A stretch of DNA of 64,000 bases, from positions 186,001 through 250,000 of the forward strand of contig NZ_JAJAPX010000002.1 in NCBI RefSeq assembly GCF_020523965.1, written 5' to 3'. The position numbers and the translations under genes are program-made. Positions 20,316 to 48,067 of the stretch are shown here, piece after piece (position 1 is the first letter of the stretch; every line of letters begins with the position of its first letter). A model generated the notes under the pieces. The model searched no databases. It saw only the letters and a program-made list of their open reading frames with translations, and was not told the origin of the DNA. This DNA is from Neotamlana sargassicola (GTDB lineage: Bacteria; Bacteroidota; Bacteroidia; Flavobacteriales; Flavobacteriaceae).

Positions 20316-20325
20316 GCTTTTAGTG

Positions 20326-20350
20326 TTTAGTAGGCATTAGGGCATTAGGC
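20326..20350. repeat. Degenerate GGCATTAG repeat pair
   Basis: Two adjoining copies of a GGCATTAG-like word lie just after the preceding gene, ahead of the heptamer array. This resembles other short degenerate repeats in this window. Confidence 0.4.
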
Positions 20351-20460
20351 AATTGTTGCGTCTTGAATTTCTGTGTATGTATTGTTAGATGATTTATTCT
20401 TTTGTTAATAAAATATTTCTCTAATAGCACTATAATAATTCCATAAGTTTTAGTTTTTAA

Positions 20461-20586
20461 GAAACAAGAAACAAGAAACAAGAAACAAGAAACAAGAAAC
20501 AAGAAACAAGAAACAAGAAACAAGAAACAAGAAACAAGAAACAAGAAACAAGAAACAAGAAACAAGAAACAAGAAACAAGAAACAA
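20461..20586. repeat. Perfect heptamer tandem array (GAAACAA) x18
   Basis: Eighteen uninterrupted identical copies of GAAACAA fill 126 bases in the gap between two convergent genes, ending 9 bases before the rarA stop codon. The array holds a spurious frame encoding a Leu/Phe/Val/Ser/Cys heptapeptide repeat, which is not a gene. The perfection implies recent slippage expansion or selection. Confidence 0.97.
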
Positions 20587-20594
20587 CAAACAAA

Positions 20595-21878
20595 CTAATA
20601 CCCGTACTTATCCTTCCATCGTTCCTTTAAAAAACTACGATGCCCATTTTCACGAGCATTATTTCCGGGGTCGTAAAGTTTGGTGTTTTTAATTTCATCA
20701 GGCAAAAACTCTTGTTTTGCAAAATTGTTTTCATAGTTATGTGCGTATTTGTAATTATCGCTATAGCCCAAATCTTTCATAAGTTTAGTTGGGGCATTTC
20801 TTATTTCTAGAGGCACACTTAAATCACCAGTTTGTTTAACCAATTGCTGGGCTTTACCAATTGCAGCATAAGCCGCATTGCTTTTAGGCGAACAGGCCAA
20901 ATAAGTAGCGCACTGACTTAAAATAATACGCGATTCTGGGTAGCCAATGGTGGTTACCGCTTGAAACGTGTTGTTTGCAATAACCAAAGCTGTAGGGTTG
21001 GCATTACCAATATCTTCACTAGCAGCAATAAGCATACGGCGGGCAATAAACTTTACATCTTCGCCACCTTCAATCATGCGAGCAAGCCAATACACTGCCC
21101 CATTTGGGTCGCTACCGCGAATCGATTTAATAAATGCCGAAATAATATCGTAATGCTGTTCGCCAGTTTTATCATAGCGCACCGTATTGTTTTGTACTTT
21201 TTGCAAAACTACGTCATCGGTAATAACCACATCGTCCGTATCAAACGAATTCACAATTAGCTCAAATATATTAAGCAGTTTTCTGGCATCGCCACCAGAA
21301 AGTCGCAATAATGCTTTAGTTTCTTTTAATGTTATATTTTTTTTCGATATGTATTCATCTTCAGAAATAGCCCGCTTTAAAAGCGTTTCTAAATCATCTT
21401 TATCAAAAGCATTTAAAATATACACTTGACAGCGCGAAAGTAATGCCGAAATAACCTCAAAACTCGGGTTTTCGGTAGTGGCACCAATCAGTGTAACCCA
21501 GCCTTTCTCTACAGCTTGTAATAGCGAGTCTTGTTGAGATTTACTAAACCTATGTATTTCGTCAATAAATAAAATAGGGTTTTTGGTAGTAAACAAGCCA
21601 CCGCTGTTTTTGGCCTTATCAATAACCTCACGAACATCCTTAACACCAGAACTAATGGCGCTTAACGTATAAAACGGTCTACCAGATTGGTTTGCAATAA
21701 TATTAGCCAAAGTCGTTTTACCAATACCAGGAGGTCCCCAAAAAATCATCGACGGAATTAAACCCTGTTTAATATGCTGTGTAAGCGTACCATTTTTACC
21801 CACCAAATGCTCTTGGCTTACATAATCTTCCAAGGTTTTTGGTCGTAATCGTTCCGCTAAAGGCTCGTTTGCATTCAT
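20595..21878 (-). CDS. rarA: Replication-associated recombination protein A (AAA ATPase)
   Basis: 427 residues. Clamp-loader-like AAA core: Walker A GPPGIGKTTLA (about 49-59), Walker B LFIDEIHRF, sensor 1 GATTENPSFEV and an arginine finger in ALLSRCQVY. The C-terminal MgsA/WRNIP1 domain follows, with GGEDVKFIARRM and the late GYSDNYKYAHNY. It acts at stalled replication forks. Full length for the family. Monocistronic, convergent with the secreted protein gene. Confidence 0.95.
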   Translation of the reverse strand: MNANEPLAERLRPKTLEDYVSQEHLVGKNGTLTQHIKQGLIPSMIFWGPPGIGKTTLANIIANQSGRPFYTLSAISSGVKDVREVIDKAKNSGGLFTTKNPILFIDEIHRFSKSQQDSLLQAVEKGWVTLIGATTENPSFEVISALLSRCQVYILNAFDKDDLETLLKRAISEDEYISKKNITLKETKALLRLSGGDARKLLNIFELIVNSFDTDDVVITDDVVLQKVQNNTVRYDKTGEQHYDIISAFIKSIRGSDPNGAVYWLARMIEGGEDVKFIARRMLIAASEDIGNANPTALVIANNTFQAVTTIGYPESRIILSQCATYLACSPKSNAAYAAIGKAQQLVKQTGDLSVPLEIRNAPTKLMKDLGYSDNYKYAHNYENNFAKQEFLPDEIKNTKLYDPGNNARENGHRSFLKERWKDKYGY

Positions 21879-21909
21879 AAATGTAAAATTACAGAAATTT
21901 TTAGGTTTT

Positions 21910-22009
21910 GGGCGTGCCCCTTCATATAATTACGGGTCGCGCTTTCCGTTGCAAGTCCTCGCTGCGCTGTGGGCTTTCCACTGCAATCGCTCACGCGGGC
22001 ATACCTGCC
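21910..22009. repeat. GC-rich intergenic repeat-like block
   Basis: About 100 bases of markedly GC-rich sequence lie between the divergent rarA and rhomboid genes. The block begins with GGGCGTGCCC (an inverted repeat) and ends with GCGGGCATACCTGCC. It contains a small GTGG/CCAC hairpin. No frame runs through it. It looks like the dispersed GC-rich repeats seen in flavobacterial genomes; copy number cannot be judged from one window. Confidence 0.5.
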
Positions 22010-22059
22010 AATTTAGCACATAAACCAAACTTGGATACTTTTTTGCTATTTTAACAGCA

Positions 22060-22788
22060 ATGAATAAATCGCAACAATTTAAATTCTCAACAGGCGTAAT
22101 TGCTTACCCTGTATTTTTTGTTCTCACCATCTGGATTGTTTTTTGGGCCGAGGTTAGGTTTGGGTATAATTTTAGTAAATATGGCGTTTACCCACAAACA
22201 TTAAAAGGGTTGCGAGGCGTGTTGTTTAGTCCATTTATTCATGGTGGTATCGATCATATTTATCACAACACCATACCGCTGTTGGTTTTATCTACAGCCT
22301 TGTTTTATTTCTACAGACAAATCGCATGGAAAGTGCTTTTTTATGGCATTCTGTTATCAGGTTTCTTAACGTGGTGTATTGGTAGACCCTCTTATCATAT
22401 TGGCGCAAGCGGATTAATTTATGTATTAGTTAGTTTTACTTTTTTTAAAGGCATTTTTGCTAAATATTACAGATTAATAGCCTTGTCGCTTTTGGTTGTT
22501 TTTCTATACGGAAGCATGATTTGGTATACTATGCCGGTAGATAATAGTATTTCCTGGGAAGGCCATTTAGCCGGATTAATTACCGGATTATTGTTTGCTT
22601 TATTATTTAAAAAAGAAATAGCAAAACCTAAAAAGTTCGCTTGGGAAGAAGAACATTATAACGAAGACGATGATCCGTTTTTAAAACACTTCGACGAAAA
22701 CGGAAATTTTATAGAAAGTTTACCTGAAGATGGGGTGGAGGAAGAGCCGTTAGAAATACGTTATTTTCTAAAAAAGGAAGATGAGTAG
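22060..22788 (+). CDS. Rhomboid-family intramembrane serine protease
   Basis: 242 residues with about six membrane helices. Catalytic Ser117 is in GASG and the partner His169 is in EGHLAG. The helix 2 HxxxN element (IYHNT) and an early FIHGG loop are present. The acidic C-terminal tail (about 200-242) is cytoplasmic. It cleaves membrane protein substrates within the bilayer; targets are unknown. It converges on rlmB across a repeat-filled gap. Confidence 0.9.
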   Translation: MNKSQQFKFSTGVIAYPVFFVLTIWIVFWAEVRFGYNFSKYGVYPQTLKGLRGVLFSPFIHGGIDHIYHNTIPLLVLSTALFYFYRQIAWKVLFYGILLSGFLTWCIGRPSYHIGASGLIYVLVSFTFFKGIFAKYYRLIALSLLVVFLYGSMIWYTMPVDNSISWEGHLAGLITGLLFALLFKKEIAKPKKFAWEEEHYNEDDDPFLKHFDENGNFIESLPEDGVEEEPLEIRYFLKKEDE

Positions 22789-22806
22789 ACGGAAGTAGGC
22801 CGTATT

Positions 22807-22859
22807 CAGTAGGCAGTCACAGTTAACAGTCGCAGTATTCAGTAACAGTTTACAGTAGG
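22807..22859. repeat. CAGT array with strictly alternating 7- and 6-base spacing
   Basis: Eight CAGT words start at 22807, 22814, 22820, 22827, 22833, 22840, 22846 and 22853, giving steps of 7,6,7,6,7,6,7. The words between them vary. It is in the gap between two convergent genes, upstream of a heptamer array. Confidence 0.85.
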
Positions 22860-22968
22860 ATTAAGTGGTTGTAGAATAAAATTATTTTCGATAAAACCTT
22901 TTTTAGTGAATAAACAATTAATAAAAAATATGTTTTAAAATAGGTTGTAATTTATTGATTAGCAGTTT

Positions 22969-23031
22969 CAACCAACAACCAACAACCAACAACCAACAAC
23001 CAACAACCAACAACCAACAACCAACAACCAA
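22969..23031. repeat. Perfect heptamer tandem array (CAACCAA) x9
   Basis: Nine identical tandem copies of CAACCAA (63 bases) end 19 bases before the rlmB stop codon, again in a gap between convergent genes. It is not a CRISPR, because there are no spacers. The unit differs in sequence from the array at 20461 but has the same 7-base length and genomic setting. Confidence 0.97.
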
Positions 23032-23050
23032 CAGTCATCGGTCAAAAATA

Positions 23051-23785
23051 TTATCGTCTCTGTCTAACAGCTTCGTACAAAAATGCACCACATGCCACAG
23101 AAACATTTAACGATTCAATGTCGCCCAATAAGGGTAATTTAGCTTTATCGTCGGCCACTTTTAATACCGATGGATTAATACCTCTGCCTTCCGATCCCAT
23201 AATTATGGCGCAAGGTTCTGTAAACGAAACATCGTAAATCGTATTGTTAGTTTTTTCGGTAGCAGCAATTACTTTTATGCCCGATGCTTGCATATAAAAT
23301 ACGGCATCTTTAATATGGTCTACTCTACAAATTGGCACTTTAAATACGGCACCGGCACTAGTTTTTATAGTATCACCATTAATAGGGGCAGCGCCTTTTT
23401 TTTGTATAATTATACCGCTAACACCAGTACATTCGGCAGTTCTAATTATGGCTCCAAAATTTCTAACATCACTAAGTTGATCGAGTAGGAGGAAAAGAGG
23501 CGTTTTACCAGACTCCATTACGTTAACCACTAAATTTTCGATATCATAAAATTCTACAGGCGAAATTTGTGCCACAGCACCTTGATGATTTTTTTTAGTT
23601 AATCGGTTTAGTTTTTCTACAGGAACATAAGATTTGGCAATGCCTGTTTTATTAACTAACGACTCTAATTCGTTAAATAAATCGCCGTGTAAACCTTTTT
23701 GTAAAAAAACTTTATCAATAGTTTTTCCAGAATTTATCGCTTCAATTATAGCGCGAATACCAAAAATTTGTGTGCTATTTTCCAT
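23051..23785 (-). CDS. rlmB: 23S rRNA (guanosine-2'-O-)-methyltransferase RlmB
   Basis: 244 residues. An N-terminal L30e-like substrate domain (IFGIRAIIEAINSGKTIDKV) is followed by a SPOUT methyltransferase domain with the three conserved motifs: LLDQLSDVRNFGAIIRTAE, IIMGSEGRGI and PLLGDIESLNVSVA. It methylates the ribose of one guanosine in 23S rRNA (G2251 in E. coli). Other TrmH-family members are possible but the domain order fits RlmB. Confidence 0.92.
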   Translation of the reverse strand: MENSTQIFGIRAIIEAINSGKTIDKVFLQKGLHGDLFNELESLVNKTGIAKSYVPVEKLNRLTKKNHQGAVAQISPVEFYDIENLVVNVMESGKTPLFLLLDQLSDVRNFGAIIRTAECTGVSGIIIQKKGAAPINGDTIKTSAGAVFKVPICRVDHIKDAVFYMQASGIKVIAATEKTNNTIYDVSFTEPCAIIMGSEGRGINPSVLKVADDKAKLPLLGDIESLNVSVACGAFLYEAVRQRR

Positions 23786-35515: not shown

Positions 35516-35548
35516 TTCTAAATTCAGAATTCTGAATTCGGAATTATA
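35514..35548. repeat. Degenerate AATTCNN heptads after rpsJ
   Basis: Five 7-base units that begin with AATT (AATTCTA, AATTCAG, AATTCTG, AATTCGG and AATTATA) lie head to tail, the first overlapping the rpsJ stop codon. They also form short EcoRI-like palindromes. Their 7-base phase matches the exact arrays at 20461 and 22969. Confidence 0.75.
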
Positions 35549-35557
35549 AAAACATGT

Positions 35558-35577
35558 CCCACCGATGCGGTCGCGGG
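35558..35577 (+). other. GC-rich hairpin in the rpsJ-rplC spacer
   Basis: CCCACCG pairs with CGGT and GGG around an ATG loop, with three unpaired bases (CGC) on the right side. It stands out from the AT-rich surroundings and precedes the terminator-like hairpin, so the two may form one folded RNA region. Confidence 0.5.
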
Positions 35578-35594
35578 AAAAACGGCAAAAATAC

Positions 35595-35634
35595 AATTCA
35601 AGGACGAAGCGTATTTTGTCCTTGAATTTTTTTT
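35595..35634 (+). terminator. Attenuator-like hairpin between rpsJ and rplC
   Basis: A perfect 11-bp stem (AATTCAAGGAC with its complement, 12-base loop) runs into eight T residues, the full pattern of an intrinsic terminator, inside the ribosomal operon. No promoter of the TAnnTTTG type is seen between it and rplC. It is probably a conditional attenuator controlling the downstream S10 genes, perhaps through a ribosomal protein such as L4 (inference from E. coli). Confidence 0.8.
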
Positions 35635-35666
35635 AAATAAGTAATAAATAAATTAATAATTAAATT

Positions 35667-46213: not shown

Positions 46214-46225
46214 AAAAAATAATGG

Positions 46226-46316
46226 TCATTAGTAATTAGACGTTAGATGAATCTGTTTGAAATAGAAATGTTTAGGATTCTAACAACTAAAAGCTAACAA
46301 CTAAAAACTAAAATCA
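46226..46316 (+). repeat. Heptad-phased leader before rpsM (copy A)
   Basis: Thirteen consecutive 7-base units fill the gap to 2 bases before the rpsM ATG. The left part is made of NNNTTAG words (TCATTAG, TAATTAG, ACGTTAG) and the right part of words ending in CT (AACAACT, AAAAGCT). TTAG and CTAA boxes can pair, giving a long imperfect hairpin. It is near-identical to the leader before rpsK. Confidence 0.85.
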
Positions 46317-46318
46317 AT

Positions 46319-46687
46319 ATGGCAAGAATTGCAGGTGTAGACATACCAAAAAACAAAAGAGGAGTTATCTCTTTAACTTATATCTACGGTGTAGGTAGAA
46401 GCAGAGCAAAAGAAATTTTAGCTACAGCTAAAGTTGATGAAAGTACCAAAGTTCAAGATTGGACTGACGATGATATTAGCGGTATTCGTGAAGCTATCGC
46501 AGCCTTTACTATTGAAGGTGAGTTACGTTCTGAAACTCAATTAAACATTAAGCGTTTAATGGATATCGGTTGTAATAGAGGTATTCGTCACAGAGCGGGG
46601 CTTCCTTTAAGAGGACAACGTACTAAGAATAACTCTAGAACAAGAAAAGGTAAAAGAAAAACTGTTGCTAACAAGAAAAAAGCATAA
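46319..46687 (+). CDS. rpsM: 30S ribosomal protein S13
   Basis: 122 residues. [20 protein letters not shown] and the C-terminal [19 protein letters not shown] are diagnostic. First gene of the alpha group. Flanked on both sides by copies of a heptad leader. Confidence 0.97.
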
Positions 46688-46704
46688 GTAAAATAATTTA
46701 ACAG

Positions 46705-46803
46705 TCATTAGTTCATTAGTATTTGGACGTTAGAAGAATCTGTTTGAAATGTAAAAGTTTAGGATTCCAATAACTAAAAGCTAGCAACTAAAAACTAAAA
46801 GAA
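46705..46803 (+). repeat. Heptad-phased leader before rpsK (copy B)
   Basis: Fourteen 7-base units with one extra base after the first, ending 1 base before the rpsK ATG. Units ACGTTAG, TGTTTGA, AAAAGCT and AAAAACT are identical to those of copy A and occur in the same order. The shared order shows common origin by duplication. Confidence 0.85.
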
Positions 46804-46804
46804 T

Positions 46805-47188
46805 ATGGCAAAAACAAGCACAAAAAAACGTAAAGTTATTGTTGAGTCTGTAGGTGAAGCTCACGTTACAGCATCATTTAACAATATCATTATCTCACTT
46901 ACCAATAAAAATGGAGACGTTATTTCATGGTCTTCTGCCGGTAAAATGGGATTTAGAGGTTCAAAGAAAAACACACCTTATGCAGCGCAATTAGCTGCTG
47001 AAGATGCTGCAGGCGTAGCTTCGGAAGCAGGTTTAAAGAAAGTAAAGGTATACGTTAAAGGACCAGGTAATGGTAGAGAATCTGCCATCCGTTCAATCCA
47101 TAATGCAGGTATCGAAGTTACAGAAATTATCGACGTAACTCCATTACCACATAACGGTTGTCGTCCTCCAAAACGTCGTAGAGTATAA
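46805..47188 (+). CDS. rpsK: 30S ribosomal protein S11
   Basis: 127 residues. [19 protein letters not shown] and the C-terminal [18 protein letters not shown] are typical. It forms part of the mRNA exit platform. Followed by a terminator, which splits it from rpsD. Confidence 0.97.
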
Positions 47189-47292: not shown

Positions 47293-47348
47293 GAGAGAAA
47301 TACGTTTGTCGAAGGATAAGATTAAGACCTTAATTCACAAATTCTCTC
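47293..47348 (+). promoter_or_regulatory. Structured 5' leader of rpsD (candidate S4 control site)
   Basis: GAGAGAA (47293-47299) pairs with TTCTCTC (47342-47348). Inside lies a smaller hairpin, ATTAA/TTAAT. The closed stem ends 17 bases before the rpsD start. S4 is an autogenous repressor in several bacteria, so this leader is a candidate target. Confidence 0.45.
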
Positions 47349-47970: not shown

Positions 47971-47980
47971 TAATTAACAA

Positions 47981-48045
47981 TCATTGGTATTTGGCCAAAG
48001 GGTTTATTCGTACTTCTTCAAACTTATAAACCGCGCAACCAAATA
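47981..48045 (+). promoter_or_regulatory. Nested stem in the rpsD-rpoA spacer
   Basis: TATTTGG (47988-47994) pairs with CCAAATA (48039-48045), and within it GGTTTAT (48001-48007) pairs with ATAAACC (48026-48032). It starts with TCATTGG TATTTGG, recalling the heptads of the rpsK leader, so it may be a third, more diverged member. No T-run follows. Confidence 0.5.
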
Positions 48046-48067
48046 ACAATTAAAACGAAGAAAAACT

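Follow-up and report, generated by a model that had tools for sequence, protein, structure and literature searches.

Intergenic heptanucleotide arrays with changing words in Neotamlana sargassicola and related Bacteroidota

Why do intergenic tracts of quite different sequence, within a single stretch of bacterial DNA, keep the same pitch of seven bases? The question is raised by a window of 64,000 nucleotides from Neotamlana sargassicola (Flavobacteriaceae; contig NZ_JAJAPX010000002.1, positions 186,001 to 250,000). A first-pass annotation of this window had listed two exact arrays, (GAAACAA)18 and (CAACCAA)9, together with AATTCNN heptads after rpsJ, leaders of 13-14 heptads before rpsM and rpsK, and a related start before rpoA. 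It had proposed that one mechanism, for example polymerase slippage or a heptad-reading protein, makes repeats of a fixed length rather than a fixed sequence. We followed these tracts through the genome, its sister species and the wider family.

Two exact arrays and their turnover among sister species

Both exact arrays were verified by exact unit counts and by Tandem Repeats Finder (Table 1). The GAAACAA array holds 18 exact units and was returned by the program with period 7, 19.3 copies and 99% matches, while the CAACCAA array holds 9 exact units and was returned with period 7, 9.3 copies and 100% matches. The 14-mer GAAACAAGAAACAA occurs 17 times, against a mean of 0.01 in shuffles, and three exact successive copies of GAAACAA are found at a single site in the whole 3.61 Mb genome; other loci of this genome also hold the heptad words. 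The gene that neighbours the GAAACAA array on the side opposite rarA has no Pfam match.

Table 1. Position of the repeat tracts and flanking genes within the window
Feature	Position	Strand	Remarks
Degenerate AGT-type tract TTTAGTG TTTAGTA GGCATTA GGGCATTA	20319..20350	+	After the stop codon of the upstream gene; Tandem Repeats Finder range 20331-20351
T-rich heptad pair GTTTTAG TTTTTAA	20447..20460	+	In register with the GAAACAA array; approximately its reverse complement (complementarity by eye)
GAAACAA array, 18 exact units	20459..20593		Convergent spacer; ends one base from the rarA stop codon
rarA/mgsA-type AAA+ ATPase gene	20595..21878	-	Flanks the GAAACAA array; MgsA_C match
Rhomboid family gene	22060..22788	+	Flanks the CAACCAA array
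Degenerate CAGT tract	22807..22856	+	Steps 7,6,7,6, that is, period 13
CAACCAA array, 9 exact units	22969..23033		Units at 22969-23031; convergent spacer
CAGTCAT CGGTCAA	23032..23045	+	In register with the CAACCAA array; probable remnant of the sister-species word CATCAGT
SpoU-family RNA methyltransferase gene	23051..23785	-	Flanks the CAACCAA array
AATTCNN heptads after rpsJ	35521..35545	+	Short palindromic hairpin; folding z -3.0 for 35516-35560
Conserved heptad-armed element before rpsM (S13)	46214..46320	+	Copy of the conserved element of about 100 bases
Conserved heptad-armed element before rpsK (S11)	46700..46806	+	Copy of the conserved element of about 100 bases
rpoA leader	47971..48067	+	Imperfect hairpin, weakly heptadic

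The same spacers differ among species of the genus. In the rarA spacer, the 18 copies of the present genome (G000) correspond to 7 copies in G001, to two degenerate heptads in G002 and to no array in G003, where a longer unrelated insert takes its place. In the rhomboid spacer, (CAACCAA)9 of G000 corresponds to no array in G001, to (CATCAGT)4 in G002 and to about 130 copies of CATCAGT in G003. The arrays thus have the features of heptanucleotide microsatellites, namely exact tandem seven-base units, in 18 and 9 copies, and a copy number that varies among relatives (18 vs 7 in the rarA spacer, 4 vs about 130 for CATCAGT in the rhomboid spacer).

At the right edge of the CAACCAA array, the units CAACCAA, CAGTCAT and CGGTCAA follow one another in register, and the sister-species word appears to survive there beside the present one, from which it differs at 3 of the 7 bases. 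Elsewhere in the genome, a spacer (L091:7676-7826) carries about 20 successive heptads that pass from AAGAATC to CAACAAC with the phase unbroken. Such in-register survival and such a series are what one would expect if arrays are inherited and altered by whole units and by point mutations. The proposal of a fixed length with changing words holds, the pattern is seen again at further loci and in further genera, and sister species swap words inside one spacer; what the proposal does not do is extend to all the listed tracts as products of one mechanism.

Taking this into consideration, we interpret the exact arrays as heptanucleotide microsatellites. They would grow by slippage at sites that tolerate insertions, and the pitch would be inherited while the words drift, a reading to which we give a probability of about 0.6. 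Slipped-strand mispairing at replication would lengthen or shorten an array by whole units; a point mutation may alter one unit, and amplification of the variant would then shift the word and leave the seven-base pitch as inherited. Insertions would do little harm at 3' ends or between genes that run in the same direction, which is why arrays would last in such places. Slippage, one of the causes first suggested for the window, is a fitting one, and the idea is already in print in the available text of PMC4692102.

Three other accounts of the arrays were tried and rejected. Heptads that supply stop codons in all frames after genes do not explain them, since the GAAACAA and CAACCAA arrays are free of stops in all six frames, and the words, as read from the letters, lend no support to Rho-type C-rich termination sites. 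A site-specific hotspot in the rhomboid spacer was rejected because a seven-base chain is present in only 1 of 18 orthologous convergent spacers from the 80 named loci, which is a weak test given that 12 of the 18 are just 0-4 bases long.

Period seven against other periods

Repeats were counted in four samples that together make up 3.28 Mb: 743,218 of the 3,611,638 bases (20.6%) of the own genome; 220,000 bases from three genomes of the same genus; 1,518,744 bases around rarA from 80 contigs, Bacteroidota by title; and 800,000 bases from seven further genomes of the family, each with matches in the ACT-pattern search described below. An array was defined as a non-coding, exact repeat of period 4 to 24, the minimum being three copies and 14 matching bases. 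By this rule all six arrays of the own genome and all three of the genus sample are at period 7, as are 7 of the 11 in the named contigs (the others being one at 5 and three at 8) and 4 of the 5 in the further family genomes (the other one at 6). The total is 20 of 25, among which several are orthologous or come from genomes chosen for scoring in the ACT search.

The 14-base rule is stricter for units shorter than seven and so favours 7 over 4, 5 and 6. When 14 matching bases are the only rule (periods 4-14), period 7 accounts for 20 of 34 arrays, with at most four each at periods 5, 6, 8, 9, 11, 12 and 14; when three copies are the only rule, it accounts for 20 of 44, next to 17 tetramers, two each at 5 and 6 and three at 8. 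Five of these three-copy tetramers are added in the own genome when the 14-base rule is lifted. Requiring four copies leaves period 7 with 11 of 14 non-coding arrays. Regions called as coding, over all samples, hold four arrays of period 7, two of period 4 and one each of periods 12 and 21.

A looser measure, in which a spacer is scored when one 4-mer occurs three times at a given spacing and is compared with five dinucleotide shuffles each, gave spacing-7 chains in 15 of 186 convergent spacers (2.0 expected), in 32 of 907 same-direction spacers (9.2 expected) and in 7 of 346 divergent spacers (8.2 expected, no excess). For spacing 6 the numbers are 2 convergent (3.2 expected) and 10 same-direction (9.0 expected), and for spacing 8 they are 4 (2.8 expected) and 16 (8.0 expected). 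The excess therefore peaks at 7, is smaller at 8 and is absent in the divergent spacers, where promoters lie. In the own genome spacing 11 is raised too, with 9 same-direction spacers against 3.0 expected.

The first-pass annotation had looked to autocorrelation at lag 7 over intergenic DNA genome-wide. In the 743,218 bases sampled, the exact arrays bear it out, all six being at period 7, but there is little lag-7 signal beyond these discrete arrays. With the two arrays removed, identity in the non-coding DNA of the window is 0.331 at lag 7, 0.331 at lag 6, 0.322 at lag 8 and 0.330 at lag 11, and in same-direction spacers of the genus sample, arrays kept, it is 0.329, 0.326 and 0.322 at lags 7, 6 and 8. 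The seven-base excess consists of discrete tracts and is no genome-wide texture.

In 120 genomes of the family, we also searched for ACT repeated five times at a fixed spacing. The pattern was found at period 7 in 82 genomes, at period 6 in 18 and at period 8 in 28, some of the period-8 matches being plain ACTA or ACTT tetramers. The words are highly varied (ACTTCTC, ACTAACC, ACTGATA, ACTCAAC and more), and ACT as an obligatory core was ruled out, since the letter-reversed TCA at pitch 7 matched many of the 120 genomes too. A preference for seven as sharp as this is not predicted by plain slippage.

Heptanucleotide arrays as such are of a kind already known. The 2007 survey of heptameric simple sequence repeats is reportedly that of Mrazek et al. 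These repeats were found in that year to be over-represented in many bacterial genomes, the proposed reason being the size of the DNA in the polymerase active site, and Rehm et al. (2015, PMC4692102) describe intergenic GGGAATC-type heptamers in Xanthomonas, with similar ones in Nostoc, whose length and sequence vary among relatives. As far as the available part of that paper goes, the window arrays are like them in their unit of seven, in their non-coding position and in their over-representation against other unit lengths; they differ in that their words are A+T rich and without G runs, and in the in-register word swap within one spacer.

A second likeness is with the TAACTGA direct repeats of Beggiatoaceae, Cyanobacteria and five Bacteroidetes. 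These repeats vary by indels in steps of seven bases and share their spacers with other heptamers, and in the type genome most sets lie no more than several bases ahead of a start codon (PMC4679880, in its accessible sections). The seven-base intergenic unit is shared, and the sister-species word CATCAGT is one base off (ACTGATG vs ACTGATA, from the letters). However, TAACTGA itself is not the word of the window arrays, which are built from GAAACAA and CAACCAA and are placed between convergent stop codons, not before starts. Tandem heptanucleotides are also a feature of the cyanobacterium Calothrix, where we take them to be the STRR sequences. There, several different ones occur in one genome (cited in PMC4692102), and the likeness, drawn from the description in that excerpt, is in the several words per genome, the phylum and the words being others.

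The leaders of rpsM and rpsK, and the rpsJ and rpoA tracts

The rpsM and rpsK leaders are not the plain runs of 13-14 heptads that they had been taken for. Each consists of two complementary, phased arms around a non-heptadic core, and the two are copies of a conserved element of about 100 bases. Its left arm repeats TTAG and its right arm, which reaches the start codon, repeats CTAA, both at seven-base steps, and between them lies the core GAATCTGYTTGAAAT-n-GTTTAGGATTC; in some genera the arms step by six or eight. The first 15 bases of the core have two exact copies in the own genome, both at these leaders. A search of 199 genomes of the family, from 198 genera, located the core pattern in 55 of them, which represent 54 genera. 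Of the 35 core sequences examined, from 32 loci, 29 precede rpsK and the other 6, spread over four genera, precede rpsM, as judged by the N-terminal protein sequence. Among 30 rpsM loci (30 of 36 genomes with a match), the element stands before rpsK in 11 and before rpsM only in the four loci of the same genus; for L225 and L232 the spacer upstream of rpsM was undelimited, but the letters show the end of rpmJ close to rpsM.

The element has no match to any Rfam family. The S4-Flavobacteria leader RF03141 was found at 47304-47342, before rpsD, and the two are alike in being conserved flavobacterial hairpin elements that precede a ribosomal protein gene, while the rpsM/rpsK element differs in sequence, in place and in its seven-base phased arms. 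In the available part of a survey of ribosomal leaders (PMC7247131), rpsM and rpsK leaders are given for Clostridia and Fusobacteriales, and the S4 leader before rpsD for Flavobacteria. A conserved element upstream of ribosomal protein genes, the mark of a ribosomal protein leader, is what we find here. The rpsM/rpsK leaders are an inherited cis-element, separate from the exact arrays, and probably a ribosomal-protein leader.

The proposed stems of the element were analysed in 37 aligned sequences. Pairing is found in 95.1% of their cells, and sliding brings this down to 46.2% at most. A total of 77 cells are changed on one side yet standard-paired, all via G-U, and 38 are unpaired. Changes on both sides are limited to one pair in one sequence, shuffles reach all five measures, and RNAalifold, run on 9 element sequences, reported no compensatory changes. 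Given the single both-side change and the equal scores of the shuffles, covariation is no proof of the structure of the element.

The remaining tracts also part from the exact arrays. The AATTCNN heptads after rpsJ are present, but they form a short palindromic hairpin that is not the same in the sister species. In the rpoA leader 7 is the best lag, yet with an identity of only 0.40; the match to the rpsM/rpsK model is weak (E 0.12 and 0.35) and the tract is chiefly an imperfect hairpin. One mechanism for all the listed tracts is thus not supported, the rpsM/rpsK leaders being an inherited element, the rpsJ tract a hairpin and the rpoA leader weakly heptadic.

Inverted arms and the origin of the arrays

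Some ACT arrays are accompanied by inverted arms. The 110 bases upstream, read on the same strand, contain AGT pairs at spacing 7 in 9 of 30 such arrays, from 30 genomes, against 0.6 expected from random positions within the same loci, a count that is no independent test as the arms were first spotted by eye in these 30 loci. Downstream, AGT pairs accompany 1 of the 30. The letter-reversed control TGA was found twice upstream and once downstream, and upstream AGT arms at other spacings number 4 at spacing 6 and none at 8. Two of the ACT loci (L181 and L182), from two genera and with different words, sit between atpD and atpC, the genes being read from the letters.

Inverted repeats of the same pitch are seen between infA and rpmJ. 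The gap between these genes is 5 bases in G000 and G001, 77 in G002 and 86 in G003, and the two longer gaps hold seven-base phased inverted repeats whose words differ from one species to the other. At 26 loci of other genera, inspection by eye of the stretch preceding rpmJ, 60 bases long except for a shorter one, revealed no such tract. This comparison shows that a phased inverted repeat can arise, or vanish, inside one genus.

Heptad blocks may also have a polarity. After stop codons, G exceeds C in 29 of 43 blocks (the reverse in 12, ties in 2), and before start codons C exceeds G in 13 of 20 (the reverse in 5). The contrast has p 0.004 in the sample that first brought it to notice, to which one spacer (L279) contributes several blocks. 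In a second set, the ACT loci, the direction is the same, 18 of 28, and not significant (p 0.25). Plain slippage does not predict the upstream reverse-complement arms of 9 of the 30 ACT arrays, nor does it predict the infA-rpmJ repeats of two sister species or the G-over-C bias after stops.

Such arms would follow from phased fold-back copying, in which a stalled polymerase slips in fixed steps and copies its own nascent strand, leaving inverted seven-base arms of which one, amplified later, becomes a long array. The excess of AGT arms upstream over downstream and the infA-rpmJ repeats in G002 and G003, which contrast with the 5-base gap of G000 and G001, are consistent with it, as is the finding that model R1, trained on the rpsM/rpsK element, matches, in other genomes, heptad hairpins that lack the core, at L190 (E 2.4e-5), L196 (0.0017), L192 (0.0055) and L181 (0.0079), loci chosen by the ACT pattern. 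However, the long arrays of the window have, by eye, no second arm of equal length, and same-direction spacers that bear heptads fold no better than chain-free ones (mean folding z -1.69, n=28, vs -1.74, n=120). A strict test for inverted partners in unbiased spacers found just 4 of 47 at pitch 7 against 1.24 expected, and 2 of 20 at pitch 8 against 0.71, in a set too small and weak to count. We consider fold-back copying unlikely. A wider proposal, slightly more doubtful again, is that the phased inverted repeats of Bacteroidota may form a distinct intergenic class, in which one process of about seven-base steps would make an AGT arm and then its ACT partner de novo, long arrays being amplified arms and one hairpin having been kept in one lineage as the rpsM/rpsK leader.

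Heptad tracts might instead be binding sites or structures in RNA, selected for the control of translation or termination. The rpsM/rpsK element is indeed kept across many genera, with stems that pair in nearly all aligned cells, many heptad tracts lie near stop or start codons, and translational regulation has been suggested for the TAACTGA repeats (MacGregor 2015, PMC4679880, in the text accessible). Nevertheless, the element has its one both-side pair change and is equalled by shuffled controls, both window arrays turn over among sister species, and folding is ordinary: next to the same-direction values above, convergent heptad spacers fold worse than controls (mean z -0.55, n=9, vs -3.65, n=60), and it is the spacers with spacing-8 chains that fold better than others (-3.45, n=13). 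The folding values thus offer no support for heptads having a general role in RNA structure, and the idea that they are RNA hairpins in general was rejected because folding does not differ at pitch 7. We regard selection for an RNA function as quite improbable. The heptad-reading protein once suggested for these tracts finds no support either, given how diverse the words are and that same-direction spacers with heptads fold like the rest.

A mobile origin, in which the tracts would derive from a transposable element whose ends are heptadic, is very improbable: identical words do occur at several loci, and the AGT arm comes first, resembling terminal inverted repeats of fixed polarity, but no second full-length copy of the G002 infA-rpmJ insert turned up when the four genomes were searched at E 0.001 (the left part of the insert alone gives three matches of 31-32 bases at 87-88% identity), and the 15-base rpsM/rpsK core occurs only twice in the own genome, both times locally.

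Growth by slippage thus remains our reading of the exact arrays. In the literature searched, which leaves most subscription journals outside and was available in part, we found no account of in-register word replacement, of polar phased inverted arms or of the rpsM/rpsK element. That bacterial repeats prefer seven-base units is already on record, and the accessible text explains this preference with only a conjecture. The genus offers a tractable case of it: four species carry different words at one pitch in the same spacers, and phased inverted repeats are present in two of them and absent in two. The rpsM/rpsK element, in turn, is a new and testable candidate through which a large family of bacteria may control the synthesis of ribosomal proteins.

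Spacers around rarA and downstream of rpsJ

The divergent spacer between rarA and the rhomboid gene contains a GC-rich block which, by eye, is nearly identical in the window's own genome and in two same-genus species (G001 and G002), is partially retained in a third (G003) and is still discernible in L035, a locus from another genus. On the other side of rarA, the G003 spacer (L034) holds 777 bases in place of the array, and these include, judging from a motif, a putative sulfotransferase-type coding stretch. A 113-base stretch lying between rpsJ and the next gene is identical in sequence in G001 and G002, yet the directly preceding tract is not the same; a terminator-like hairpin was seen by eye within this stretch, which is possibly a ribosomal-protein leader.

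Coordinates of features within the window or the named locus
Feature	Locus	Position	Sequence
Divergent rarA-rhomboid spacer	window	21879-22059	
113-base stretch between rpsJ and next gene	window	35554-35666	
S4-Flavobacteria ribosomal leader (RF03141), upstream of rpsD, 41.3 bits	window	47304-47342	
Inverted repeat phased at 8 bases, window's own genome	L015	7690-7768	GTTTANNN / AACTAAAC
Long inverted repeats, 8-base step, Sphingobacteriales genome	L157	9806-10000; 11273-11462	TGTGCTAA / TTAGCACA
ACT heptads	L185, L198, L196	each near 1500	

Other phasings

The L157 repeats lie between same-direction genes; the L015 repeat gave a folding z of -3.6. Spacing 11 was raised in the spacers of the window's own genome (16/325 vs 4.8 expected, the three spacer types summed over the genome sample), an excess that perhaps reflects helical phasing of A tracts.

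ACT heptads at RNA genes

In three genera, ACT heptads are immediately followed by a tRNA gene or 5S rRNA, as read from the letters, and their setting looks like that of rRNA operons.
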